In this document: piece by piece, positions 499 to 11,438 of the stretch | How positions within the stretch are numbered: position 1 is the stretch's first letter | How the letters are laid out: every line of letters starts with the position of its first letter | Assembly: GCF_016411865.1 (NCBI RefSeq) | Contig: NZ_JAEKJA010000001.1 | Span: 310,001 to 374,000, forward strand | DNA: 64,000 nucleotides | Reading direction: 5' to 3' | From: Acuticoccus mangrovi | GTDB lineage: Bacteria > Pseudomonadota > Alphaproteobacteria > Rhizobiales > Amorphaceae | The notes under the pieces: model-generated | The model's input: the letters and a program-made list of their open reading frames with translations, nothing else | What the model was told of the DNA's origin: nothing | Database searches by the model: none | Translations under genes and position numbers: made by a program

Positions 499-929
499 CG
501 CGCTCCCTCGCGGCACGGGCATCCGGGAGGGTGATCCCGCGCCCGGCGCAAAGCCGTGCACGAAGCCTGCCAACTCAAGGACTTGGAGCGATCGCGCAGA
601 CGCGCGGAGCAACGCGCTCGGCGGCATCGGGCCGCCCGCGGCGCAAATGTCTTCCCCAGGTCTGAAGAGGGAGTGGCTCCCCGGGCCGCACTGAAAGGCC
701 CAAGGAATAACAAGGCGATAGCCTCTTTCAGGACAGGCGGTGTTCTTCGTCTGTCTACGCGTTTCGGCGTTGGAGTGTCCCACGATCCGCGGCCCTTCAT
801 CACGAAGAACGCCGCCCGGGTGGGGGCCCGGAACGGCGTCAATCATCATAGAGTAGAGCAGCAGAGCTCACCCAATATGTACCCCCTGCAGCCCTCGCCG
901 GCAAGGATTCCGAGCATTGGAGGCGCCGC
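499..929. other. Intergenic region spanning the chromosome/element boundary
   Basis: No convincing gene is seen here. The first 175 bp are the chromosomal upstream region of the DUF917 gene. The left attachment repeat follows at 674-688, and the rest is the element's left-end DNA leading to the primase gene, whose GGAG ribosome site is near 917. Confidence 0.6.
674..688. repeat. Left attachment site (attL candidate)
   Basis: Sequence TGGCTCCCCGGGCCG, identical to the last 15 bases of the tRNA-Asn gene at 11364-11378. Identity ends abruptly on both sides, as expected for a crossover core. Confidence 0.75.
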
Positions 930-1523
930 ATGAGCGCCCTCCTCACCGCCGCCCTCGCGCTCGCCGAACGCGGTTGGCCTGTCTTCCCCTGCAACCCTGC
1001 CGCCGACAAGGCGAAGGGCAAGCAGCCGCTCATCGCGAAGGGCTTCAAAGGTGCGTCGACTGACCCCGACACCATTCGCACCTGGTGGCGCGAGCACCCG
1101 GACGCTCTCATCGGCCTGTCGACCGGCCGCGACCTCGGCGCCTTCGTCGTCGACCTTGATCCCCGCGAGGACGACTGCGAGACCCTGTGGCGCAGGCTCG
1201 AGGAGCACATCGGTGCCGAACTCGGCGAGCCGGTTGTGGCGATCACTCAGTCCGGCGGCTGGCATCTCTACTTCGCCTGGCCGGACCTCCCGCAGGGTGC
1301 GAAGCTCGGGAACCGCGGCGGCCTGATCCCACACGTCGACGTCCGCGGCGCCGGCGGCTATGTTATCGCGCTCCCTTCCGTGATGAGCGACGGTCGCACC
1401 TACACGTGGCGCCGCCGTGCCGATGGCGAGCGAGGGCTCACAGCGCCGCCGGCCCCCTCGTTGACTGCATCCTCCGAAGGGGCGCCTTCGCCCCTCAGCG
1501 GCCGCCCCAGGCGATGCGTCTAG
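930..1523 (+). CDS. Bifunctional DNA primase/polymerase (PrimPol) domain protein
   Basis: Archaeo-eukaryotic-type PrimPol domain that would prime and extend DNA for replication of the element. Visible family motifs are the N-terminal ALALAERGWPVFPCNP, the metal-binding FVVDLDP (two Asp, about residues 72-76), the SGGWHLYF His motif (about 109-116) and HVDVRGAGGYVIALPS (about 133-148). The start at 930 has GGAG nine bases upstream. At 197 residues it holds only the catalytic domain: relatives normally continue through a linker into a helical primase C-terminal region and a DUF3987 helicase in one chain. Here the frame stops at 1523 within a linker, and the rest is encoded in another frame starting at 1514. 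Either the gene split by frameshift and the halves work as two proteins, or expression involves recoding. Confidence 0.85.
   Translation: MSALLTAALALAERGWPVFPCNPAADKAKGKQPLIAKGFKGASTDPDTIRTWWREHPDALIGLSTGRDLGAFVVDLDPREDDCETLWRRLEEHIGAELGEPVVAITQSGGWHLYFAWPDLPQGAKLGNRGGLIPHVDVRGAGGYVIALPSVMSDGRTYTWRRRADGERGLTAPPAPSLTASSEGAPSPLSGRPRRCV
1478..1495. repeat. Small palindrome in the primase linker
   Basis: AGGGGCG-CCTT-CGCCCCT forms a 7-bp stem just before the point where the primase and helicase frames part. A related palindrome (GCGAAGGC/GCCTTCGC) sits at 1802-1820 in the second linker of the downstream gene, and both regions encode low-complexity Ser/Gly/Arg/Pro sequence. They look like inserted palindromic elements. 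Confidence 0.5.
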
Positions 1524-3400
1524 ACGCATCGGAACGGCGTCGGAAATATGCCCTTGCTGCGATGGATGCCGAGATCCAGCAGCTCGCGGCCGCACCGGTT
1601 GGCGAACAGAACGATCGGCTGAACCGGGCGGCCTTCGCCCTGGGGCAGCTCGCCGGCGCTGGCGCTCTCTCCGAGGGCGTGGCGCGCGCGGCGCTTGAGG
1701 AGGTGGCGGACACCTGGCCGAACCTGCGGAAGAGCCGCGGCACGATCGCCAGCGGCCTCAAGGCGGGCATGGCGCAGCCGCGCGACCTCGCCGAGGTTGA
1801 AGCGAAGGCGGCGCCTTCGCGCGGCCGCGCCTCTGAGGGAATGCCTCTCCGTTCAGGCGGAGCGGCGAGCTCCGCCGCCGGAGACCGAGGCAGGCCGTTT
1901 CCGGGGGCGCAGGCGGCCGGTGATTGGGTGACGCCGGACCTCACCGTCATCGACGGCGAGGTGCGCAAGGCTCCGCCCTTTCCGACGCATATCCTCGGCG
2001 ACTTCTGGTCACGATGGGTAACCGCACGAGCAGATGCAGCGTCGGCACCGGTCGACTATGTGGCAGCTTCCCTGCTGGCTTGTGCAGGCGCCGCGATTGC
2101 GAACGTGCGGTGGCCGGTCGCCGGCGCCGGGTGGGCGGAGCCGGCGCATCTTTGGGTCGCGTTGGTGGGTTCGCCGTCCGCCGGCAAGTCGCCGGCGATG
2201 AAGGCCGCAGTGAGCCTCATCAGCGAGGCCGAGGGGGCGCTTCGCGTCGGCCTGGACGACAAGCTTCGCGCCTGGCGGACCAAGGAGCAGGCGGCGAAGG
2301 CGCGGCGCGCAGTGTGGGAGCAGGAGGTTGCGGCGGCCGCTCGCGAGGACCGGGATCCGCCGCCGCTGCCGGCGGACGCCGAGCCGCCGGCGCCGTTCGT
2401 CGCGCCGCGCATCCTGATCGCCGATGCCACGAGCGAAAAGCAGGCCGAGCTTGCTGCGGTCCTGCCGCGTGGCCTTCTCCTCGTGAGGGACGAGCTGAGT
2501 GGCTGGCTTGCATCCTTCGGCCGATACAGCGGCGACGGCGCAGACCGCTCATTCGCGCTCGAGGCGTGGAACGGAGGCGCCTATGTGGTCGACCGCAAGA
2601 AGACGGCGGACCCGATCCGGGTCCGCCACCTGAGCGTGGGCGCGCTGGGCGGCATCCAACCAGATCGGCTCGCCCCGATCATCGACGGTCCCGACGACGG
2701 GCTCCCGACGCGGTTCCTGTGGGCATGGCCGGAGCGGCCCCCGGTGTTCCGGATCGCGCGAACCCCGATCGACGACAGCGAGGCCCGCGCCGCGTTCGTC
2801 CGTCTGGCGCGGTTGCCGATCGGCACTGATGGGCACGGGAACCCGGAGCCGAAGCGGCTGCCGCTCTGCGAGGATGCCGTTCTCATCCTCGAGGAGCTTG
2901 CCCGTGACATGGCCGCGAAGGCGGAGGACATCACCGGACCGCTTGCCGGTGCGCTGGGGAAGGCGCGGGGGCATGCTCTGCGGCTGGCCTGCATTCTCGA
3001 GCATCTGGCCTGGTGTGCGGCGCCTGGTGATCCGGAGCCGGAGGGGATCAGCGGAGAAGCGATGCGCCGCGCTGTGGATCTCATCGCGGCCTATTTCGTG
3101 CCGATGGCCGAGCGTGTGTTCGGCGATGCGATCATCCCGCCTGCGGACCGGGGGGCGACGCGCTTGGCACGGCATGTCAGGTCTGAGGGGCTGACCGTGT
3201 TCAATGCTCGCGAGGTGCGTTTGCGGCTTGGCGGAAGCTTGCGGACTTCTGAAGCGATGCTCGCGGCGTGCGGCGAGCTGGAAGAGGCCGGCCTGATCCG
3301 TGAGCTCCATCCTGTTGGTGCCCGAAAGCGGGGGCGCCAGGCGCGGCACTTCGATGTGCATCCCGCCCTCAGCCGCGTGCGCGCGCTGCGAACCGTCTAG
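1514..3400 (+). CDS. Primase C-terminal region plus DUF3987 helicase-like protein
   Basis: Replication ATPase of the element. The N-terminal ~90 residues (RRKYALAAMDAEIQQLAAAP and LNRAAFALGQLAGAGAL onward to IASGLKAGM) are the helical segment that normally follows a PrimPol domain. A low-complexity linker follows, then the DUF3987 domain with a Walker A motif GSPSAGKSP and an acidic ADATSEKQAELAAVLPRG/LLLVRDELSGWL region resembling Walker B. A C-terminal winged-helix-like stretch (EAMLAACGELEEAGLIRE) ends the 628-residue chain. The start chosen is ATG 1514, overlapping the primase stop by 10 bp, so translational coupling is likely; the open frame extends further upstream but that part is antiparallel to nothing recognisable. 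A strong hairpin terminator follows at 3442. Confidence 0.8.
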   Translation: MRLDASERRRKYALAAMDAEIQQLAAAPVGEQNDRLNRAAFALGQLAGAGALSEGVARAALEEVADTWPNLRKSRGTIASGLKAGMAQPRDLAEVEAKAAPSRGRASEGMPLRSGGAASSAAGDRGRPFPGAQAAGDWVTPDLTVIDGEVRKAPPFPTHILGDFWSRWVTARADAASAPVDYVAASLLACAGAAIANVRWPVAGAGWAEPAHLWVALVGSPSAGKSPAMKAAVSLISEAEGALRVGLDDKLRAWRTKEQAAKARRAVWEQEVAAAAREDRDPPPLPADAEPPAPFVAPRILIADATSEKQAELAAVLPRGLLLVRDELSGWLASFGRYSGDGADRSFALEAWNGGAYVVDRKKTADPIRVRHLSVGALGGIQPDRLAPIIDGPDDGLPTRFLWAWPERPPVFRIARTPIDDSEARAAFVRLARLPIGTDGHGNPEPKRLPLCEDAVLILEELARDMAAKAEDITGPLAGALGKARGHALRLACILEHLAWCAAPGDPEPEGISGEAMRRAVDLIAAYFVPMAERVFGDAIIPPADRGATRLARHVRSEGLTVFNAREVRLRLGGSLRTSEAMLAACGELEEAGLIRELHPVGARKRGRQARHFDVHPALSRVRALRTV

Positions 3401-3441
3401 GCGCCGGTCGCCGCCACCGGCCTTCGAAAGGCAGGAGAGTT

Positions 3442-3467
3442 GAAAGGGGGCGCACGCGCCCCCTTTC
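3442..3467 (+). terminator. Perfect hairpin after the replication genes
   Basis: GAAAGGGGGCGC-AC-GCGCCCCCTTTC gives a 12-bp perfect stem 42 bp after the DUF3987 stop codon. There is no long T-run, but position and strength suit a transcription terminator. Confidence 0.6.
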
Positions 3468-3573
3468 CGCATGCGCGGGGGCGAGAGCGTGCGACAGCTG
3501 AGAGGGCATCTGGCCCTCCGAAAAGAGAACAAAATATAAACACACACTTCAAAACCATCTCTATAGGCCGAAA

Positions 3574-3807
3574 TCTCCGAAATCTCCGTAAATCGCAGAC
3601 CGTTGATATCGCACGGTTTTTTCGGGGTATTTTTGAAGAGTGCCGAGTCTCCGAAATCTCCGTAAATCGGTCGACCGGGCCGCGCCGGTGTGTGGGGGCT
3701 GATTTACGGAGATTTTCGGAGACTAATCGGAGACTCGCTATTCTCCGATAAACCGGCTGTAACTCATTGAAATCACAGGGGCTAGAGATTTACGGAGATT
3801 TCGGAGA
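3574..3807. repeat. Origin-like array of four 21-bp repeats, two in each orientation
   Basis: Copies at 3574-3594 and 3648-3668 read TCTCCGAAATCTCC followed by GTAAATC. Inverted copies lie at 3701-3722 (one extra T) and 3787-3807. Three copies are exact. Extra half-motifs (TCGGAGACT, TTCTCCGATAA) lie between 3726 and 3751. The stretch is richer in A/T than its surroundings and lies directly after the primase/helicase genes, so a replication origin with initiator-binding sites is the best reading. An operator array is the alternative. Confidence 0.6.
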
Positions 3808-3947
3808 CTAAATCTCACTCAGACGGAGAGGAGGCGGCCGCCGGCAGGGGCTGGAAGGCGTGGACCTGTCGGCGCGGGTCCTTCCTGGGGAGGAGGATGC
3901 GGGTAGTTCGCGCCGCAGTGTGGCTCCAGTTACAGACGAGATTGAAG

Positions 3948-3973
3948 CCTAAACACTCCGTTTAGTGTTTAGG
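3948..3973. repeat. Inverted repeat, 10-bp perfect stem
   Basis: CCTAAACACT-CCGTTT-AGTGTTTAGG. It lies between the origin-like array and the end of the leftward cassette. It could be a terminator for leftward transcription, a single-strand origin or a protein site. Confidence 0.45.
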
Positions 3974-4017
3974 GGTACTGGCGCGTGTATAAGGTGAGAG
4001 GGCGTAATTTGTGTCGC

Positions 4018-4056
4018 AATCGCAGATATTCTCTATCGTACAGAGTATCTGCGATT
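4018..4056. repeat. Long inverted repeat (17-bp arms, 15 paired)
   Basis: Arms 4018-4034 and 4040-4056, with outer 11 bases (AATCGCAGATA/TATCTGCGATT) perfectly paired and a 5-base loop. It lies 28 bp beyond the last gene of the leftward cassette, so it may end that transcript. No T-run is present. Confidence 0.45.
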
Positions 4057-4084
4057 GGTATCTATTGAACAGACGAAGCGAGTA

Positions 4085-4321
4085 TCAGTTTGCGAAGTCG
4101 GCCGCGTTTGGTATGGATGATCCAACATCCATCAACATAACGGTAGCGCGGAGAGAGGGGGCTTGATCTTTGTCAACGTTGTCGACCGCCCAGCTGACTG
4201 TTTCTACCCGGTAAATTCGGTCAGCAATGTATACAGTGTCGCCCTTGCGTGGTGCACCATTGGCGTCTAGACATAGGATTAAATCGCCTTCGGCACGCGT
4301 ATCGCGAAACTCGATCTTCAT
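4085..4321 (-). CDS. Small protein of unknown function (78 aa)
   Basis: Last gene of a three-gene leftward cassette. It starts at ATG 4321 behind AAAAGG. The sequence (MKIEFRDTRAEGDLILCLDA, then RKGDTVYIADRIYRVETVSWAVDN) has alternating hydrophobic residues suggesting a small beta-rich fold, with no signal peptide or membrane segment. I do not recognise a family. The cassette has lower GC than the flanking chromosome and lies beside the element's repressor, so a role in element control or host interference is possible but not shown. Confidence 0.6.
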   Translation of the reverse strand: MKIEFRDTRAEGDLILCLDANGAPRKGDTVYIADRIYRVETVSWAVDNVDKDQAPSLRATVMLMDVGSSIPNAADFAN

Positions 4322-4333
4322 AGGGTCTACCTT

Positions 4334-4576
4334 TTAAGTCTTTAGGAATGGCAATTTTTGGCTTTCAATTTTTGAGAATCCTGATACTAGCTCAATTGTC
4401 CATCGCATTACTTGTAGATCGGTCTCATTTGCTGTGTCTAGCATGTGTCTTACTTTGGTATATGCATCATTAAGTTGGCTTATGAACTTGGGCCGTACAT
4501 CGGGATCTATTTCTTTGAGGATCTCGATGAGTGCAGCAATAATAACCGCTACTCCTGCCCCGAGATAATTGTTCAT
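4334..4576 (-). CDS. Small protein with an N-terminal hydrophobic segment (80 aa)
   Basis: Second gene of the leftward cassette; its ATG at 4576 directly follows the TAA (4578-4580) of the HTH gene, with GGAG inside the end of that gene, so the two are translationally coupled. Residues 5-20 (LGAGVAVIIAALIEIL) are hydrophobic enough for a membrane anchor. The rest is helical and charged (DPDVRPKFISQLNDAYTKVRHML). No family is recognised. A small membrane-associated protein paired with a repressor could be a superinfection or immunity factor; this is inference. Confidence 0.6.
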   Translation of the reverse strand: MNNYLGAGVAVIIAALIEILKEIDPDVRPKFISQLNDAYTKVRHMLDTANETDLQVMRWTIELVSGFSKIESQKLPFLKT

Positions 4577-4577
4577 A

Positions 4578-4817
4578 TTACTTGTCTCCTTCTTGGATTT
4601 TTATCTGGACTCCTAGCCCGCGGCCACTTTCGTCCGAAACGAACTGAACCCCGGCTGCCTCCAAGGCTCGCTGGATAGCCTGAAGCGTTGACTGCTTGGC
4701 GTCACCACCTTTCTCAATGCGGGTCACGGTATTGGCTGTCACGCCTGCCTCCGCGGCTAGCTCCCGCACTCCCCACCCTAGCCCAGCTCTGGCCATCCTC
4801 AGTTGAATTGGCGTCAT
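4578..4817 (-). CDS. Cro/CI-type helix-turn-helix repressor (79 aa)
   Basis: A short XRE-family DNA-binding protein. MTPIQLRMARAGLGWGVREL and AAEAGVTANTVTRIEKG make up the classic HTH_3 motif, followed by a recognition-domain extension (TLQAIQRALEAAGVQFV) and a tail GRGLGVQIK common in such regulators. The ATG at 4817 was chosen because AAGGA precedes it at good spacing and the fold begins there; an ATG at 4877 would add 20 unrelated residues. The gene is divergent from the rightward gene at 4910 with 92 bp between them, the standard arrangement of a phage-type repressor controlling early rightward transcription. Confidence 0.85.
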   Translation of the reverse strand: MTPIQLRMARAGLGWGVRELAAEAGVTANTVTRIEKGGDAKQSTLQAIQRALEAAGVQFVSDESGRGLGVQIKIQEGDK

Positions 4818-4909
4818 TGGTTCTGGGTCCTTATGCGCGTTGACAGTGTATCGTTTCGAGTGCACTACTAGGGACAAGGTACAAACGCGACGTTACAGGA
4901 GCAACGACA
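4818..4909. promoter_or_regulatory. Divergent control region of the element
   Basis: The 92 bp between the repressor gene and the rightward gene must hold both promoters and presumably repressor operators. AGTGTATCG and AGTGCACTA lie about one helical turn apart (4845-4868) and could be half-sites. No consensus promoter stands out. Confidence 0.4.
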
Positions 4910-5374
4910 ATGCCGAACACCACCGTTCCGGCCGACGGGGAAGCCATGCCCGGCGGCGAGCTGACGCCGGATGAAAAGGTCCGGTTGCGCGAATTGAAGG
5001 AAGAATTCTTCGCGCTGATTGGGCGTGCGACAGATGCTGAGAACAAAGCCGACGAGGACCGCTTGAAGCGCGTGCAGTTCGAGCGCTTCGTGGGTGACAC
5101 TATCCTCGACCTGCTGGACAAGATCTCGGCGGAGTTGCAGCCGCGAATTCACCTTCTCGACCTGGCGGTCGGGGGTGACAGCGTGCCATCGGACGATAGA
5201 GGTGCCCTCCGCTGGGCTGTCGATGACGTGGGCGGCGTGGTCGACGACCTCTATCTCGACCTCAAGGGGATTAGCCGCATCGCGCACCGGCGGGTCGAGG
5301 CTGAGCTTGGTCGGTGGGTGCCGCTGCGGGATGACGAAGAATTCTCGTTGTGCGGGGCCGACGAGAAAGACTGA
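4910..5374 (+). CDS. Uncharacterised helical protein of the element (154 aa)
   Basis: First rightward gene opposite the repressor, with GGAG nine bases before the ATG. It is acidic and helix-rich: residues 19-47 (LTPDEKVRLRELKEEFFALIG and following) and 50-75 look like long amphipathic helices, possibly a short coiled coil. No catalytic motif, signal peptide or membrane segment is visible and no family is recognised. The same frame continues for 54 more sense codons after the TGA at 5372-5374, with composition like the gene itself (see the next entry). Confidence 0.6.
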   Translation: MPNTTVPADGEAMPGGELTPDEKVRLRELKEEFFALIGRATDAENKADEDRLKRVQFERFVGDTILDLLDKISAELQPRIHLLDLAVGGDSVPSDDRGALRWAVDDVGGVVDDLYLDLKGISRIAHRRVEAELGRWVPLRDDEEFSLCGADEKD

Positions 5375-5539
5375 AAGGGCAGGATCGGCCGGGCAGCTGC
5401 GACGTGCGCGAAGCGGCAAGCCCAGGCGCTCGCGCTGTCCTTGGACGAAGCGGCCGATCTCCTCGAGTGGGCGGAAGGCTTTAGGGACACGCTCGACGAA
5501 GTGCGGGCGGAGCGCCGAGCGCATTGTGGTGAGGGCTGA
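5375..5539 (+). other. In-frame continuation after the TGA of the 154-aa gene
   Basis: Directly after the TGA the same frame stays open to a second TGA at 5537-5539 and reads like real protein (KRQAQALALSLDEAADLL, then EWAEGFRDTLDEVRAERRA). No ATG or GTG lies in its first half; TTG near 5442 is the first plausible start. It may be a nonsense-truncated gene end, a read-through extension, or a tiny gene with a TTG start. Confidence 0.4.
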
Positions 5540-5556
5540 TATCCACGTTGTGCGCT

Positions 5557-5612
5557 CACCTACTAGACTTTCTATGAGCCTCGCTATATGCTCACAGAAA
5601 ATCTAATAGGTG
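5557..5612. repeat. Inverted repeat overlapping a ribosome-binding site
   Basis: Arms 5557-5573 (CACCTACTAGACTTTCT) and 5596-5612 (AGAAAATCTAATAGGTG) pair at 15 of 17 positions. The right arm contains AGGTG, the ribosome site of the gene at 5617, so the fold could hide it. It could equally be an operator for a dimeric regulator such as the HTH protein at 4578. Confidence 0.5.
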
Positions 5613-5616
5613 GCTC

Positions 5617-6159
5617 ATGTCCTACACAATTCACGACGGAATGAAGGTGTCCGGCTTCAGCCGTTCTACGCTCGCTGCGGCGGTCGCGAAGTCATGGATT
5701 CCGATGCGCCACATGAATGTCGAGAACGGAAAGAAACGCCCCTTCGATAAGACAGACCTTGTTTGGATCCATGTGGTTGCCGGATTGCGCGCGATCGGCG
5801 TCCCCTGGGATGCGCTCCCCCAAATCTTCACGGATTGCGGGCTCTTCTCCGACGGCTGGTGCAAGAGCCTGACCGATCTCTTCCCGAATGAGGCTGCCAC
5901 CCGAGCCCGGTGGGTGAAGGAGTATCCTTCTGCTACACCCGAGGAACTGGCCCCCGTCCTGTGCGTCAGCCATAGCCTGTGGTCGAGCTTCTTCCGCGTG
6001 GTTGAGCGCGTGAACGGTGAGGTTCAGCCAGGCGAGTTGCGGGGGCGCATCATGCCGCTGGCGCTCGTAATCGACTTCCTTCGCTCGGGGGACGGGGGCG
6101 TCCTGCTGTTCAATCTCGACGAAATCACCGTGATCGTCGAACAGCGTTTGGCGGAATAG
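5617..6159 (+). CDS. MerR-like winged-helix protein in the terminase position (180 aa)
   Basis: The N-terminus (KVSGFSRSTLAAAVAKSWIP, then KKRPFDKTDLVWIHVVAGLRAIGVPWDAL) has the layout of a MerR-type winged helix: a helix-turn-helix, a short wing and a helix pair. The remaining 110 residues carry no motif I recognise. It ends 6 bp before the portal gene, the place where terminase subunits usually sit in head modules, and small terminases of the lambda Nu1 type also begin with a winged helix. A DNA-recognition role in packaging is therefore plausible, but a transcription factor is equally possible. There is no large-terminase ATPase beside it. An inverted repeat covers its ribosome site. Confidence 0.6.
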   Translation: MSYTIHDGMKVSGFSRSTLAAAVAKSWIPMRHMNVENGKKRPFDKTDLVWIHVVAGLRAIGVPWDALPQIFTDCGLFSDGWCKSLTDLFPNEAATRARWVKEYPSATPEELAPVLCVSHSLWSSFFRVVERVNGEVQPGELRGRIMPLALVIDFLRSGDGGVLLFNLDEITVIVEQRLAE

Positions 6160-6165
6160 CCGAAC

Positions 6166-7590
6166 ATGCTTCGCCGCATCGCCTCTGCAATTCGAGGCGC
6201 TGCCCCCAAAGGTGGTTCGGTCCGCCGCTCGCTGGAGGCGGCGGCCGGCGGCCGGCGCTGGGAAGAGACCCCCGGCACGGCCGACGCGGCCCGGATGGCG
6301 CACCAGGGTGCAGCCCTGGTCGCTGCGCGCGCCTCGGCGCGGGTGGCGAACGATCCGCATCTTACGCGCGCGGTCGAATCGTTGGTTGGCAACCTCGTCG
6401 GCACCGGATTCAAGGCGCGGCCGCAGCACCCCGACGACGACGAGCGAGAACGCCTATCGCGGGAGTGGTCGGTCTGGTCGGACATCGCAGACGCTGATGG
6501 CCTGGCGAGCTTCGCGGGGCTTCTGGCCGCGGCGACGCGCGACATCGTGGTGCTCGGCGAGGCGTTGCTGGTGTGGACGACGGACCCCGACAGCGGCGAG
6601 CCGCAGCTCCGCCGCCTGCACCCCGAGCAGCTCGACCGCACCCGAAACACCTGGTCGGAAGGCGCCTCCCGCATTTCGCAGGGGGTGGAGTTCGATGGCT
6701 ATGGCCGGATCGCCGCCTATTGGATTCGTCCCGGCGGGCCGGCCGAACGGATCGGTATGATGGCTCAGCCGTCCGTGAGGGTTCCGCGGTCCGACGTGTT
6801 GCATGTGTGCCGCCCTCTGGCTCCCGGTCAGCATCGCGGCCTGTCCTGGCTGGCGCCGGTCCTCCTCTCGTCGCAAGAGCTACACGGCTACTACGACGCC
6901 ATCCTTGAGCGCGCCCGCCTCGGCGCGGCGCAGCCCGGCGCGATCGCCGTCGATCCGGACTTCCTCGAGGGCGGTGGGAAGACGACGGTCGAGACCTTCG
7001 GCGGCGCGGGGACGAAGATGCCGCAGGCGTCGTTTTTCCAGCTGATGCCCGGCGAAAGCATGACCTTCCCCAACGTCCCGGATACGGGAGACGTTGAGCA
7101 GTTTGCGACCGCGATGCTGCGCATGCTGGCCGCCGGCATTGGCACGACGTTCGAACAGGTGACCGGCGACTACAGCAAGGTGAACTATTCGTCCGCCCGT
7201 GCGGCCGCGCTCGAGTTCCGCCGCTTCGCACGCTCCGTCCAAGAGAGTCTGCTTGTCCATCAGCTGTGCCGTCCCGCCTGGACCCGCTTCATGCGGCACC
7301 AGGTGCTGATGGGACGCGTCTCGGCGGCTGCCTATCAGCGCGACCCTGGCGCCTACCACGCGGTACGCTGGCTGCCGCCGCACTGGCCGAGCGTCGACCC
7401 GGTGAAGGACGCGCAGGCGGCCGTGCTCGATCTGAACGCCGGCCTCCGCAGCCGTAGCGAGCTGGTCGCTGAGCGTGGCCTCGACGCCGAGGAGCTTGAC
7501 CGCCAGATCGCGGCCGACGCCGAACGAGCGCGAGCGCTTGGCATCACGCTTGGGGCGACCGGCGCATCCATCGAGGAGAGCCCGGAATGA
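6166..7590 (+). CDS. Phage portal protein (lambda GpB type)
   Basis: The portal forms the ring at the capsid vertex through which DNA enters. The 474-residue length fits the lambda-like portal family. Typical features include RVANDPHLTRAVESLVGNLVGTGFKARP near the N-terminus (about 59-86), the long middle with RLHPEQLDRTRN, and the signature region TTFEQVTGDYSKVNYSSARAAALEFRR (about 326-352). The C-terminal ~40 residues are charged and disordered as in relatives. It follows the 180-residue gene by 6 bp and overlaps the protease-capsid gene by 4 bp (ATGA), so the head genes are one translationally coupled operon. Confidence 0.9.
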   Translation: MLRRIASAIRGAAPKGGSVRRSLEAAAGGRRWEETPGTADAARMAHQGAALVAARASARVANDPHLTRAVESLVGNLVGTGFKARPQHPDDDERERLSREWSVWSDIADADGLASFAGLLAAATRDIVVLGEALLVWTTDPDSGEPQLRRLHPEQLDRTRNTWSEGASRISQGVEFDGYGRIAAYWIRPGGPAERIGMMAQPSVRVPRSDVLHVCRPLAPGQHRGLSWLAPVLLSSQELHGYYDAILERARLGAAQPGAIAVDPDFLEGGGKTTVETFGGAGTKMPQASFFQLMPGESMTFPNVPDTGDVEQFATAMLRMLAAGIGTTFEQVTGDYSKVNYSSARAAALEFRRFARSVQESLLVHQLCRPAWTRFMRHQVLMGRVSAAAYQRDPGAYHAVRWLPPHWPSVDPVKDAQAAVLDLNAGLRSRSELVAERGLDAEELDRQIAADAERARALGITLGATGASIEESPE

Positions 7591-9320
7591 ACGAGGTGAT
7601 CGAGCGCCGGCGCACGATCGCTTCGCCGACGACAGTTGACCGGGAGAGCCGGGAATTCGAGGCCGTCATCGCGACGGAAGCCACGGTTGGCGGCATCATT
7701 CTCCGCCTGGCCGGTCTGGCGATCGCCGACAACGTGCCGCTTCTCCTCGATCATCGGGCGGAGGCCAGCGCCACCGTGGGCCGGATGATCGAGCACCGAG
7801 CCGAGAGCGGACAGCTCATCGGCCGCTTCCGCCTGTCGAGTGACCCCACGCTTCTATGGCTCGTCTATCGGTTGGCGGATGGCACGCTTTCAGGCCTCAG
7901 CGTCGGCTTTCGCGTCGACGCCTGGGGCGGCAGCGAGGCGGGGTCCCGCGTCGCGACACGAGCAACTTTGTTGGAAGTCAGCATCACGCCGACGCCGGCA
8001 GATGCGAACACGAGGGTGAGAACCATGGACCCTACGACCGAGCCGGCCGCCCAGAACGTGCCCGAGACCATCATCAACCGCGCCGAGGCGAACCGAGAAA
8101 TTCGGGCGCTCGCCACCACGTTCGACCTCGGGCCGGCTTTCTCGGACGAGCTGATCGACCGCGGCGCCAGCGTCGAGGAAGCGCTCGCGGCGGTGCGTCG
8201 CTCGCTTCGGGACCAGCCGGCGGCGCCCGTGGCACGGATCACGGCAGTGCACCACATCGACGGGCCCGAGCAGTTCGTCACCCGCGCTGGCGAGGCGGTG
8301 TTCGCCCGGGCGAACCCTCGCCATGAGGTTTCGGAAGCGGCGCGGCCGTTCGTCAGCATGACGAACCTCGATCTCGCCCGCCACTGCCTTCAGCTCCGCG
8401 GGGAGAGTGCCGCCGGCGCGGCGCACGACGTGATCACGCGCGCGCTGCACACGACGAGCGACTTCCCGCAGATCTTCGGCAACGCCATCGGACGCCAGGC
8501 GCGCCGGGCCTATGAACTGGCCCCCGACGCGCTGAAGACGGTGGCGCGGCAGACCACGGCCCGCGACTTCCGCGCGAAGACGTCCATCCAGCTGAGCGAG
8601 GCGCCGGTGCTCGAGCGGGTGAACGAGAGCGGCGAGTTCACGCACGGCACGCTCAGCGAGGCCAAAGAGAGCTACAGCATCGCCACCTACGGCAAGATCA
8701 TCGCTCTCTCGCGCCCGGCGATCGTCAACGACGACCTCGGTGCCTTCGCCGACCTCGCGGCGCGGCTGGGGCAGGGCGCCGCCGAGACCGAAGCGCGGCT
8801 GAAGATCGGGCTTCTGGAGGCGAATGCCGGAGGCGGCCCGACGATGGAAGACGGCAATGCGCTCTTCCATGCCAACCATGGGAATCTGGCGGGCAGCGGC
8901 GCGACGATCTCCGAAGGCACGCTTTCGGCGGCCCGGCTCGCGATGCGCACCCAGGTCGGCCTGAGTGGGCACCCGGTCAACGTCCGCCCCCGCTACCTCC
9001 TGGTGCCGCCGGCGCTGGAGACCACGGCGGAGAAGGAAATCGCGCAGATCCAGCCGAGCGCCAGCTCGGATGTGAACCCCTTCGCGGGGCGCCTCGAGCT
9101 GCTGGTCGATGCGCGCCTGTCGAGTGCGACGCGCTGGTACCTGATCGCGGACCCCGCGCAGATCGACGGCCTGGAATATGCCTACCTCGAGGGCGAGGAG
9201 GGGCCGCAAACGAGCACGCGGGCCGGCTTCGAGGTGGATGGGGTCGAAATCAAGGTCCGCCTCGACTTTGGCGCGGCCTTCTTGGACTGGCGCGGCTGGT
9301 ACGCGAATCCCGGGGCTTGA
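7587..9320 (+). CDS. Prohead protease / major capsid protein fusion
   Basis: One chain of 577 residues joins two head functions. Residues 1-150 look like a prohead protease: VDRESREFEAVIATE at the start, the LLLDHRAEASATVGR segment containing the likely catalytic His, and TLSGLSVGFRV with the likely catalytic Ser. A scaffold-like charged region follows (about 150-250). The C-terminal half is a major capsid subunit (SMTNLDLARHCLQLRG; LLVPPALETTAEKEIAQI; YAYLEGEEGPQTSTRAGFEV; DFGAAFLDWRGWYANPG), the last part resembling Mu gpT-type head proteins. Fusions of this kind are known in alphaproteobacterial prophages. It would make the shell of its own particle, an important sign that the element is more than a simple parasitic island. 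Confidence 0.9.
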   Translation: MNEVIERRRTIASPTTVDRESREFEAVIATEATVGGIILRLAGLAIADNVPLLLDHRAEASATVGRMIEHRAESGQLIGRFRLSSDPTLLWLVYRLADGTLSGLSVGFRVDAWGGSEAGSRVATRATLLEVSITPTPADANTRVRTMDPTTEPAAQNVPETIINRAEANREIRALATTFDLGPAFSDELIDRGASVEEALAAVRRSLRDQPAAPVARITAVHHIDGPEQFVTRAGEAVFARANPRHEVSEAARPFVSMTNLDLARHCLQLRGESAAGAAHDVITRALHTTSDFPQIFGNAIGRQARRAYELAPDALKTVARQTTARDFRAKTSIQLSEAPVLERVNESGEFTHGTLSEAKESYSIATYGKIIALSRPAIVNDDLGAFADLAARLGQGAAETEARLKIGLLEANAGGGPTMEDGNALFHANHGNLAGSGATISEGTLSAARLAMRTQVGLSGHPVNVRPRYLLVPPALETTAEKEIAQIQPSASSDVNPFAGRLELLVDARLSSATRWYLIADPAQIDGLEYAYLEGEEGPQTSTRAGFEVDGVEIKVRLDFGAAFLDWRGWYANPGA

Positions 9321-9322
9321 TC

Positions 9323-9553
9323 ATGAGTGAAACGATCGAACTGCTCGAGGAGCAGCTTGAGAGGCTCCGGGAAGTCCGCGCGAAGGGCGTGGACTCTTAC
9401 ACTATCAACACGGCGATGGGCTCACGCTCGATGACATTTCGCAGCGACGCCCAGCTGGCCGTGGCTATCCGCGATGTCGAACGGCGCATTTCCGCCCTGA
9501 GCCGGCCGCGTCGTCCTTTCCTTCAGCTTCGTGTGGATCGAGGTTTGTCATGA
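9323..9553 (+). CDS. gpW-like head-tail connector protein (76 aa)
   Basis: Small head-completion protein. SETIELLEEQLERLREVRAKG, the strand SMTFRSDAQLAVAIRDVERR and the basic C-terminus RPRRPFLQLRVDRGL match the pattern of gpW-type connectors, which plug the portal and give the tail a docking site. I use ATG 9323; a TTG two codons upstream overlaps the capsid stop codon. Its TGA overlaps the next ATG by 4 bp. Confidence 0.75.
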   Translation: MSETIELLEEQLERLREVRAKGVDSYTINTAMGSRSMTFRSDAQLAVAIRDVERRISALSRPRRPFLQLRVDRGLS

Positions 9554-9882
9554 AGAACTATGTGCACCGCGGCGACACCGTTACCCTGCCGGCCCCGGCG
9601 GGTGGCGCGACCTCTGGTGACGGCGTTCTCGTCGGCACCGTGTTCGGTGTGGCGGCGTTCGACGCCCCGGAGGGCGAGGAGGTGGAATGCACGCTTGTCG
9701 GCATCTTCGAGTTGCCCAAGGCAGCCGGCGCCGTCACCGCCGGCGCAAAGGTCTACTGGAGCACGGCGAACGGCAACGTCACGACGACGGCGTCCGGCAA
9801 CAGCCTCATCGGCGCCGCGATCGCCGCGCGGCAGAGCGGCGACGCTACGGTGAAGGTGCGATTGAACGGCATCACGATCTAG
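9550..9882 (+). CDS. DUF2190 capsid decoration protein (110 aa)
   Basis: Short beta-rich protein with MKNYVHRGDTVTLPAPAGG, GVLVGTVFGVAAFDAPEGEE and GAKVYWSTANGNVTT, the pattern of DUF2190 proteins found beside capsid genes, which act as cement or decoration proteins on heads. It is the last gene of the head operon; a GC-rich inverted repeat follows at 9922-9961. No tail gene comes after it, which is where tail genes would start in a full prophage. Confidence 0.8.
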   Translation: MKNYVHRGDTVTLPAPAGGATSGDGVLVGTVFGVAAFDAPEGEEVECTLVGIFELPKAAGAVTAGAKVYWSTANGNVTTTASGNSLIGAAIAARQSGDATVKVRLNGITI

Positions 9883-9921
9883 GCTTCCGGCAGGAGAGCC
9901 CGGGCGGTGGTCCCGCCTCAA

Positions 9922-9961
9922 GCGCGCGCCGGCCTGCCGGATGAGCTTTCCCGGCGCGCGC
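9922..9961. terminator. GC-rich inverted repeat after the head operon
   Basis: GCGCGCGCCGG (9922-9932) and CCGGCGCGCGC (9951-9961) pair perfectly over 11 bp around an 18-base loop. No T-run follows, so termination is only likely from its position. Confidence 0.45.
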
Positions 9962-9991
9962 AGACCATCTGTCAGATGAAGGGAAGTCGCC

Positions 9992-10249
9992 ATGGCGCAG
10001 CATCAGGACCGCACCGACGGCCGGGCCTATCCACCCTTCGGCATGACGAGGCAGGAAGCGGCGCGCCACCTGATGGTGTCACCGGCGACCTTTGACAGGT
10101 GGGTGAAGGAAGGCGTGATGCCAAAGCCCCGGCGGCGGGGCGGCATTGCGCGATGGGTGCGGCTCGAGATCGAGGAAGCGGCCTTGCGGTTGCCGACCGA
10201 AGGCGAGGCAACGGACGAGGACAAGTGGCTCGATCGTATCGGTTTGTGA
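9992..10249 (+). CDS. Excisionase-like helix-turn-helix protein (85 aa)
   Basis: AlpA/MerR-type DNA-binding protein: GMTRQEAARHLMVSPATFDR forms the helix-turn-helix and WVKEGVMPKPRRRGGIARW the wing. The ATG has GAAGGGA upstream. Its end overlaps the integrase start by 25 bp, the usual pairing of excisionase and integrase, so it probably controls the direction of recombination. Confidence 0.75.
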   Translation: MAQHQDRTDGRAYPPFGMTRQEAARHLMVSPATFDRWVKEGVMPKPRRRGGIARWVRLEIEEAALRLPTEGEATDEDKWLDRIGL

Positions 10250-11427
10250 CGCGTGACCGCGACCGGCGAGGGAATATCCGGCTCTACTTCCGGCGCCCCG
10301 GCCAGCTGAAAGTGCGCCTGCCAGGCCCCGAAGGGTCCGATGCCTTTCTCAAGGCCTATGGCGATGCGCTGGTGGGACGCTTCCCCGCAAAGCCGGCGTC
10401 ATTGCCGCGAAAGAACAGCACCAGCTTCGAATGGCTGGTCGACCGCTACCAGGAATCGCCGGCCTGGCTTTCGCTGGATGAGAAGACCCAGGTTGCGCGG
10501 CGAGGCATCCTGCGGCGGCTCAATCTCGAATTCTGCGACCTACCATTTGCCGCGATGACGCCACGGATCGTGCGGCGCCTGCGCGATCGGAGCGCGGCGC
10601 GGCCGAACAGCGCGAATCACCTGGTGAAGATCCTGCGGGGTCTCTTCCGCTGGGCGCTCGAAGAGGACCTTGTCGCCAGCAATCCGGCCGCCGAGGTGGC
10701 GTTGATCCCTGTCGTCACGGATGGCTTCCATTCCTGGACGCTGGAAGAGGTGCGCCAGTACGAAGCCCGCCATCCGGTTGGGACGATGGCGCGCCTGGCC
10801 TTCGACCTGATGCTCTACACGGCGGCGCGGCGCTCCGATGCGATTCGCCTGGGGCCGGAGCACGTTCGCGATGGCTGGTTCGTGAAGGTGCAGCACAAGG
10901 GGCGGAACCGGAAGCCCGTCCACTGGGAAGTGCCCGTGCTGCCTCCACTGGCGAGGAGCATCGCTGCGACCCGGACCGGGGCCGGTACTTTCGTCGTGTC
11001 CGAGCTCGGCACGCCGTTCACGGACAAGTCGTTCGGGATGCGCTTCCGTCGCTGGTGCGATGCGGCCGGCCTGAAGCATTGCAGTGCTCACGGGCTGCGC
11101 AAGGCAACGTCGGCCCGCCTCGCCGAGCTGGGATGCACCGAGCACGAAATCGCGGCCGTCACAGGCCACACGAAGCTCGAGCATGTCGCGGTCTATACGC
11201 GGGCCGCGAACAAGAGGCTTCTGGCGGCGTCAGCAATGGCGAGGCTGGAAGAGAGCGGGGCGACCCGCAAGGAAGAGACTGTCCCACCCGAAGCTTTGGA
11301 CGGCGAAGGTGGGACAGCCGAAGTCACTAACCCGAAGTCAGGAAAGGACTTTTCCTATGAAGATGGCTCCCCGGGCCGGATTCGAACCAGCGACCAACCG
11401 GTTAACAGCCGGTTGCTCTACCACTGA
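10225..11427 (+). CDS. Tyrosine integrase
   Basis: Site-specific recombinase of the element. The GTG at 10225 (GAGGAC upstream) gives VARSYRFVTRDRDRRGNIRL, the standard start of this alphaproteobacterial family; the open frame upstream is unrelated. It has 400 residues: an N-terminal arm-binding part, a core-binding SAM-like domain (SFEWLVDRYQESPAWLSLDE) and a catalytic domain with LYTAARRSDAIRLG (first Arg), KHCSAHGLRKATSARLAELG (His-x-x-Arg), GHTKLEHVAVYTRAANK (His and the Tyr nucleophile). The last ~20 codons (SPGRIRTSDQPVNSRLLYH) are the antisense of tRNA-Asn, so the coding end was borrowed from the attachment site on integration. Confidence 0.92.
   Translation: MARSYRFVTRDRDRRGNIRLYFRRPGQLKVRLPGPEGSDAFLKAYGDALVGRFPAKPASLPRKNSTSFEWLVDRYQESPAWLSLDEKTQVARRGILRRLNLEFCDLPFAAMTPRIVRRLRDRSAARPNSANHLVKILRGLFRWALEEDLVASNPAAEVALIPVVTDGFHSWTLEEVRQYEARHPVGTMARLAFDLMLYTAARRSDAIRLGPEHVRDGWFVKVQHKGRNRKPVHWEVPVLPPLARSIAATRTGAGTFVVSELGTPFTDKSFGMRFRRWCDAAGLKHCSAHGLRKATSARLAELGCTEHEIAAVTGHTKLEHVAVYTRAANKRLLAASAMARLEESGATRKEETVPPEALDGEGGTAEVTNPKSGKDFSYEDGSPGRIRTSDQPVNSRLLYH
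11364..11378. repeat. Right attachment site (attR candidate)
   Basis: Second copy of TGGCTCCCCGGGCCG. It covers the encoded CCA, discriminator base and acceptor strand of tRNA-Asn, so integration left the tRNA gene functional. Confidence 0.75.
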
Positions 11428-11438
11428 GCTACCGGGGA
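11364..11438 (-). tRNA. tRNA-Asn (GTT)
   Basis: Reading the minus strand from 11438, the acceptor TCCCCGG pairs with CCGGGGA, and a D-arm (GCTCAGTGGTAGAGC), anticodon loop CTGTTAA, T-loop GGTTCGAATCC, discriminator G and encoded CCA follow. Anticodon GTT reads Asn codons. It is the integration site of the element on its 3' side. Confidence 0.95.

Follow-up and report, generated by a model that had tools for sequence, protein, structure and literature searches.

A tail-less, capsid-encoding phage satellite of Acuticoccus mangrovi with a cos-like site and no recognisable terminase

Described phage satellites are reported either to take head, packaging motor and tail from a helper phage, as P4 and the phage-inducible chromosomal islands (PICIs) do, or to make their own head and motor and take the tail, as the capsid-forming PICIs (cf-PICIs) do. 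The gene set described for the latter comprises capsid, portal, protease, connectors, the small and large terminase subunits (TerS and TerL) and HNH, with a helper needed for tails only (PMC10690885). The cos-type PICI EcCICFT073 and P4 are described as carrying a cohesive-end site (cos) and being packaged in trans by the helper terminase (PMC6092414, PMC10690885), and a PICI with cos and without TerS is reported to be moved by lambda and phi80 (PMC6092414). Here we analysed a 64-kb stretch of contig NZ_JAEKJA010000001.1 of Acuticoccus mangrovi, referred to as the window, in which an integrated element of 10.69 kb (674-11378) lies in a tRNA-Asn gene. The element encodes its own head, and a cos-like site sits where TerS-TerL should start. 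The reading that we favour, with a probability of about 55%, is that the element builds a small head itself, relies on the terminase of a resident phage for packaging in trans and borrows a tail as well.

The initial annotation had proposed a compact satellite at these positions with its own head and without recognisable terminase or tail, and family and profile searches confirmed this. The element is bounded by two copies of the 15-bp direct repeat TGGCTCCCCGGGCCG, attL at 674-688 and attR at 11364-11378, the second copy being the 3' end of the target tRNA-Asn (GTT) gene (11364-11438, minus strand). When the tRNA end was compared with the left 5 kb, the longest match was 15 bases, a length reached in none of 500 Markov-shuffled flanks (maximum 13). 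Since the element lies inside a 682-kb contig, no part of it has been lost at a contig end. Searches with Pfam, PHROG and profiles found no terminase, tail or lysis genes in the element, which does not hold the gene set of a complete prophage. Terminase families matched none of its genes except for a weak similarity of the excisionase (Xis)-like helix-turn-helix (HTH) protein to small-terminase models (PHROG_57, E 2.9e-6; our own TerS profile, E 8.2e-4), which probably reflects a shared winged-helix fold. A terminase hidden in the window was considered and rejected: a TerL profile run with filters off on six frames of the 64 kb gave no match (best E 1.4), and the TerS profile rose above threshold only at the Xis-like HTH.

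Searches with a capsid alignment yielded 364 confirmed relatives from GTDB genomes and 550 from IMG/VR. The design, initially thought to be little described in an alphaproteobacterium, is thus not rare; judged from sequence, what is integrated here is a tail-less, capsid-encoding phage satellite whose family is common in Alphaproteobacteria. The best 80 relatives were taken from each of the two databases, and a capsid-profile match was present in 181 loci, including loci fetched from relatives and plasmids. TerL was counted in the 102 loci with at least 8.5 kb of upstream flank, and a GpA-type TerL was present in 95 of them; the 79 capsid loci with less upstream sequence were left out of this count (TerL was seen in 22). 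Tail matches were found in 5 of the 102 loci, three of which are clear prophages (L039, L053 and L058), in a search whose queries were tail genes taken from three phages and for which 41 of the 102 loci only had 8 kb of downstream sequence. The window's repressor recurred in 25 loci, where it is encoded on the minus strand and stands between TerL and portal; all 25 carried TerL and showed the order TerL, repressor, portal, capsid; three of these are 100% copies (L149, L150 and L156), so that 22 remain. The window has the family order of minus-strand repressor, gene upstream of the portal, portal, protease-capsid, gpW, (DUF2190) and integrase, and it has the cos-like site upstream of the terminase position; the family's TerS-TerL pair between replication gene and repressor is what it lacks. 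Relatives with a terminase, tail and lysis block at this site, which the initial annotation had taken as the mark of a mere deletion remnant, were not encountered among the loci seen: the sisters carry TerS-TerL, with the few tail matches given above.

Integration also follows the family pattern of a tRNA 3' end, an att repeat and a length of about 10-12 kb. A tRNA or transfer-messenger RNA (tmRNA) gene was present in each of 22 chosen loci. In L118 and L140 a tmRNA gene stands at the integrase end instead of a tRNA gene. Among 22 non-window elements, namely 21 chosen loci (L138 was left out) and a second satellite of the host on contig C56, att repeats of 13-60 bases, some of them no longer than 13-15, were found in 21, with TerL inside in all 21 (L130 had no repeat); 20 of the att spans measured 9.85-12.1 kb and one 16.7 kb. 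The arm from att to portal is 5.5 kb long in the window, at the low end of the 5.3-6.9 kb seen in 14 sisters, and it falls within this range because a larger PrimPol-DUF3987 module and the iterons largely fill the space of TerS-TerL. The seven other genomes of the genus were searched at the same tRNA, each with about 3-15 kb of flank, and the element was not found there. In one of these species (G005) this tRNA-Asn is occupied by another element, about 14.6 kb long (L250, 645-15263, 45-bp att), whose repressor is 41% identical to the window repressor.

The cos-like site (3870-3922, plus strand) consists of a core, GGGTCCTTCC (3876-3885), and a right half, GCGGGTAGTTCGCGCC (3899-3914), that holds a putative 12-nt cohesive end at 3902-3913. 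It was first seen as a conserved non-coding stretch upstream of TerS when the C56 satellite was compared with a relative, and was recognised in the window at 3875. In the interval from 300 bases before to 60 bases after the TerS start, GGGTCCTTCC was present with 0-1 mismatch in 32 of 97 loci, compared with 1.8 expected from shuffles. A 23-site profile built with the window left out scored 3870-3922 at 27.8 bits (E 8.6e-8), while the window's next best site reached 3.6 bits and the best site in 50 Markov-shuffled windows 12.2. Excluded from this profile were L148, L149, L150, L156 and L215 as copies (100% identity was checked for L149, L150 and L156 only) and the odd loci L055, L058, L059 and L097. 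Because the core was used to pick the sites, independent evidence comes only from the right half, where the window agrees, and from the shuffles. Exact copies of the 14-mer CGGGTCCYTCCTGG stand at two places in the 5.46-Mb genome, one in the window and one in the C56 satellite.

Deposited phage genomes give a clue to the right half. Eight records were compared (the partial record PAN70 at its ends only; the profile scan left out F10). The linear genome of MD8 begins and ends with GGTAATTCGAGC, and F10 has GGTAATTCGAGC within one base of both ends; the right half, which carries 10 of these 12 bases in the window, is therefore the likely 12-nt cohesive end. A mention of cos was sought in the MD8 paper and none was found. 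In the Paracoccus phages Psul1 and Pben1 the core is present without mismatch, at 83 and 107 bases, respectively, upstream of TerS. Both core and right half were present in Psul1, Pben1, MD8, F10 and LPPA33 (the core with 1 mismatch in the last three), mEp043 had the core only, and in RcOceanus neither was clear. By profile, Psul1 was clear (E 9.4e-5). The LPPA33 record does not end at its cos-like site. In most loci the site belongs to a non-coding stretch and precedes terS by about 50-140 bases, which would suit a terS promoter or operator, an explanation that overlaps with decay of the element (see below). We consider such a role unlikely: the site is kept where no terS remains, and its right half is the same, or almost the same, as the 12 bases at the ends of the deposited linear genomes of two phages.

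Directly after cosN, three CTAAA/TTTAG sites (3949-3972) form a block that is possibly cosB, the TerS-binding part. The three sites were matched in none of 2000 shuffles, and in the 23 loci 24 CTAAA/TTTAG sites were observed compared with 4.3 expected (L148, L149, L150, L156, L215, L059, L074, L075 and L097 were dropped from this count; L055 and L058 were kept). No link was found between the classes of cos right half and the TerL clades. A second recurrent motif upstream of TerS, seen as the 9-mers GCGGTTCCT (26/97 loci) and GGTTCCTCC (24/97 loci), may be a second cos type. With a cos-like consensus now given for a widespread satellite family, helper-satellite pairs could be predicted from sequence.

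A candidate source of the motor is present in the host itself. The TerS gene C56:260882-261523 has a cos-like site upstream (C56:260767-260828; 28.3 bits in 3.2 kb) that agrees with the window's right half in 15 of 16 bases. It is the host's only TerS of the L058 type (40% identical) and lies 1.1 kb from the right end of C56, while contig C65 opens with a near-complete TerL, 62% identical to the L058 TerL, followed by portal and tail genes. We infer that the two belong to one prophage split by assembly. L058 is a tailed, lambda-type prophage of another species of the genus (G006) with a cos-like site upstream of its TerS (24.6 bits). The block after this site resembles the window's (local score 43; maximum of 2000 shuffles 32), its PrimPol is 63% identical to that of the window, and its DUF2190 gene shows 71% DNA identity over 293 bases; the portals share 31% identity, and the L058 flanks hold an integrase and a lysozyme-like gene.

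The second capsid satellite of the host (L046, C56:39436-50903, 11.5 kb) lies at tRNA-Phe with a 19-bp att and has TerS-TerL, its own capsid and an integrase 50% identical to the window integrase. A close copy of it (TerL 91%) is found at tRNA-Phe in G074. Were the motor to come from this satellite and not from a phage, the window element would be a second-order satellite. The presence of this 11.5-kb satellite in the same genome, with a left cos core identical to the window's but for one base, would fit such a dependence; its right half differs, however, and it is the TerS site at the C56 end that matches at 15 of 16 bases. This difference is not decisive since the right-half class does not follow the TerL clade, and we hold a second-order satellite to be improbable.

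Several observations weigh against packaging by a resident phage terminase. The core sites were picked by a motif that had first been seen as common with the window. By profile, E values of 0.03-0.16 make Pben1, MD8 and LPPA33 weak and one of 0.24 makes RcOceanus doubtful, and mEp043 shares no more than the core. The CTAAA/TTTAG block is absent after the C56-end and C56-satellite sites and, in all, in 10 of the 23 loci. The C56-end TerS and the C65 TerL lie on different contigs, which makes their single prophage a putative one, and the 18.7 kb at the C56 end showed no match to TerL, portal, capsid, integrase or reference phage genes. The right half is also identical in the sister satellite L146, so that the match fits a phage-type motor without pointing to the prophage in particular. 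PrimPol and helicase do not share one uninterrupted frame. Finally, no intact TerL-less sister was found among the 102 loci with flank: besides the window, 7 TerL-less loci had enough upstream flank, and 6 of these look truncated, fused or rearranged (L034, L087, L100, its copy L186, L103 and L145; the seventh is L143). The idea that TerL-less relatives form a functional clade was not supported by these six.

The element could accordingly be a decaying remnant, as the initial annotation had also considered: a family satellite that lost TerS-TerL and then its primase frame, with the cos-like site as a leftover and nothing packaged now. The interrupted frame and the damage in six of the seven other TerL-less loci keep this option a serious rival, and TerL is kept in all 25 sister loci with the same repressor. 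We nevertheless regard it as less likely than not, since integrase, Xis, repressor, portal, capsid, gpW, DUF2190 and the 180-aa gene are all full-length open frames, att sites are present, and cosN and the following block are kept though TerS is gone. In addition, the overall length is normal, the att-to-portal arm stays in range, and the genome is a draft in which the frame break, close to a C run, may be a reading error. As a separate observation, a single open frame of L100 (8611-10008, Magnetospirillum) scores 48 bits with the TerL profile and 140 bits with the portal profile, an apparent internal deletion joining the two genes.

Two further proteins had been suggested to act in packaging, a 154-aa orphan (4910-5374, plus strand) divergent from the repressor and a 180-aa protein (5617-6159, plus strand) directly upstream of the portal. 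Winged-helix HTHs are also found in small terminases, both genes lie a short way upstream of the portal, and the 154-aa protein has no relative in what was searched, so that either might be an unrecognised terminase or packaging adaptor. We consider this very unlikely, because 154-180 residues are too few for an ATPase-nuclease and in sisters the homologues of the 180-aa protein are found alongside TerS and TerL, each with a gene of its own. For the 154-aa protein, there were no family matches and the structure model was poor (predicted local distance difference test, pLDDT, 57), all-helical at low confidence, which weakens its case. Compared with 47 profiles of genes adjoining portal or TerL in other loci, the 180-aa protein best matched a 15-member cluster whose genes immediately precede the portal (hhalign probability 36%, E 3.8e-4; next 3%), with an N-terminal HTH pattern in common. 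Its model reached pLDDT 86-96 over most of residues 1-70, with confident ends and a poor middle, and its first Foldseek matches were MerR regulators, albeit weak (best E 0.01). From sequence and model it is taken as a regulator, a distant member of a MerR-like family, and was rejected as a terminase; the structure-based search, of the kind that the initial annotation had advised, pointed weakly to a MerR-like regulator. Among 397 genomes of the order, a search with this protein found the window genome only (1/397). On the minus strand lie the Cro/C1-type repressor (4578-4877; HTH_31, 8.3e-8), whose place is conserved in the 25 sister loci, and proteins of 78 aa (4085-4321) and 80 aa (4334-4576) with no family at E<0.01 and no function assigned.

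The replication module was initially read as one primase/helicase gene, which we correct here: a PrimPol domain protein of 197 aa (930-1523, plus strand; PF09250 Prim-Pol, 3.8e-38) and a DUF3987 helicase-like protein (1514-3400, plus strand; PF13148, 1.8e-60) lie in different frames. Relative to fused relatives (tblastn), the break falls near 1457-1466, beside the C run, and in at least 3 relatives PrimPol and helicase form a single open frame. A true mutation at this position would mean damage and a reading error would not. The helicase frame is open from 1187, and as its first ATG past the frame switch, at 1514, overlaps the PrimPol stop, two coupled proteins are also possible. The origin-like repeats that had been noticed were borne out as iterons of a putative origin (3575-3806), with 3 exact 20-mers at 3575-3594 (+), 3649-3668 (+) and 3787-3806 (-) compared with 0.01 expected even when 3 mismatches are allowed. 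Viral contigs held no relatives of the window helicase and none of the iterons. Helicase relatives were present in 13 of 199 genomes, the window's own included; those of G006, G063 and G091 sit in the loci L058, L048 and L055, which carry TerL and portal. Six other flanks of helicase relatives (the G011 contig being 4.2 kb only) showed no portal, no TerL and, for the capsid, one 26.9-bit match (L276) only.

All genes of the head and recombination modules are on the plus strand. The head module comprises a portal of the lambda family (6166-7590; PF05136, 3.9e-77), a prohead protease-major capsid fusion (7587-9320; Phage_capsid_4 PF25209, 1.4e-59; Peptidase_S78 PF04586, 1.2e-6; PHROG_4523, 3.1e-164), a gpW-like head-tail adaptor recognised by PHROG only (9317-9553; PHROG_2545, 5.2e-8; PHROG_118, 1.8e-5) and a DUF2190/Phage_cement_2 head decoration or cement protein (9550-9882; PF09956, 7e-29). 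Capsid relatives were also seen on plasmids. The 7.8-kb Synechococcus elongatus plasmid NZ_CP006473 has a protease-capsid gene (L037, 1082-2686) whose product covers 97% of the window protein at 26% identity (Phage_capsid_4, 3.7e-18; Peptidase_S78, 5.5e-6), together with a gene of weak similarity to TerS, and the 10.7-kb plasmid RHOAph of Rhodovastum atsumiense (L036, NZ_OW485609) has the capsid fusion, a head-tail attachment protein, DUF3987 and ParA; portal and TerL were not found on either. Of RHOAph, the part of its genome paper that we saw gives the size only (PMC9938234). The head genes are followed by the excisionase-like winged HTH (Xis/MerR-like; 9992-10249) and a tyrosine integrase (10246-11427; PF00589, 1.3e-14), the closest relatives of which (62% and 63%, respectively) both lie in L257 (9756-11164, IMG/VR). 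The stretch of L257 that was seen carries a minor-tail/tape-measure-type protein and no capsid gene of the window's family, which suggests that phages and satellites exchange this recombination module.

The att repeats, the gene content, the family membership, the terminase not found and the cos-like site with its near-match upstream of a TerS in the same genome, all read from the sequence, are consistent with a life cycle whose regulation, and whose continued mobility, we infer. Integrase and the Xis-like HTH would excise the element from tRNA-Asn, and PrimPol-DUF3987 would replicate it from the iterons into concatemers; if the interruption of the primase frame is real, a replicase from elsewhere may be needed as well. 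Once the Cro/C1-type repressor is released, and with the MerR-like 180-aa protein acting, portal, protease-capsid, gpW and DUF2190 would be turned on and a small head would form. The terminase of a co-resident lambda-type phage would dock on the foreign portal, cut the satellite cos and pump about 10.7 kb into the satellite head, which would receive its tail from the helper. Among the options of the initial annotation, packaging by a helper is the best supported because the cos-like site is kept; the satellite design also held, while the 180-aa protein as terminase and rarity in Alphaproteobacteria did not, and the 154-aa candidate was weakened.

The nearest relatives of the element are its sister satellites (for example L071 of Stappia, L077 of Rhodobacter aestuarii, L091 of Pararhodospirillum and the host's C56 satellite), which share the order of portal, capsid, integrase and tRNA, a similar length, mostly the same repressor and, where a site was found, the same cos type; unlike the window, they carry TerL, and their left arm differs. 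The phages L058, Psul1 and Pben1 have the window's cos type, and L058 also its PrimPol and DUF2190, but they have their own terminase, with tail genes in L058 and Pben1 (of Psul1, only the head end was covered). The proposed satellites of marine bacteria known as virion-encapsidated integrative mobilizable elements (VEIMEs) and tycheposons (PMC11389934) are likened to the window by their description only. The Charybdis elements, which by their description have no HK97 capsid (PMC12324425), were set aside as unrelated. A capsid-encoding satellite without terminase was not found in titles and the opening lines of abstracts, a search outside which the main cf-PICI, satellite-survey and VEIME papers fell.

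Like the cf-PICIs as described, the window element is integrative, has its own portal, protease, capsid and connector, and showed no tail; unlike them, it showed no TerS, TerL or HNH by Pfam and profiles. In terms of sequence it thus falls outside the cf-PICIs as to terminase and is a variant of the alphaproteobacterial capsid-satellite family defined here. As to the packaging described for EcCICFT073 and P4, the window has a cos-like site of putative function and the same genome holds a candidate helper terminase; those satellites, by their description, use the helper capsid, whereas the window encodes its own. We tentatively suggest, at somewhat less than even odds, a third satellite packaging strategy, in which a small head is made, the own motor has been discarded and a cos like that of the resident phage is kept for the phage terminase. 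If this is true, satellite head and motor are separable, exchangeable modules, and a head-maker that borrows its motor would directly raise the questions of terminase docking on a foreign portal and of cos as the sole determinant of what is packaged. By analogy with the described systems, the element would work like a hybrid of a cf-PICI and a cos-type PICI, with the own head of the former and, its motor not having been found, the cos-like site of the latter.

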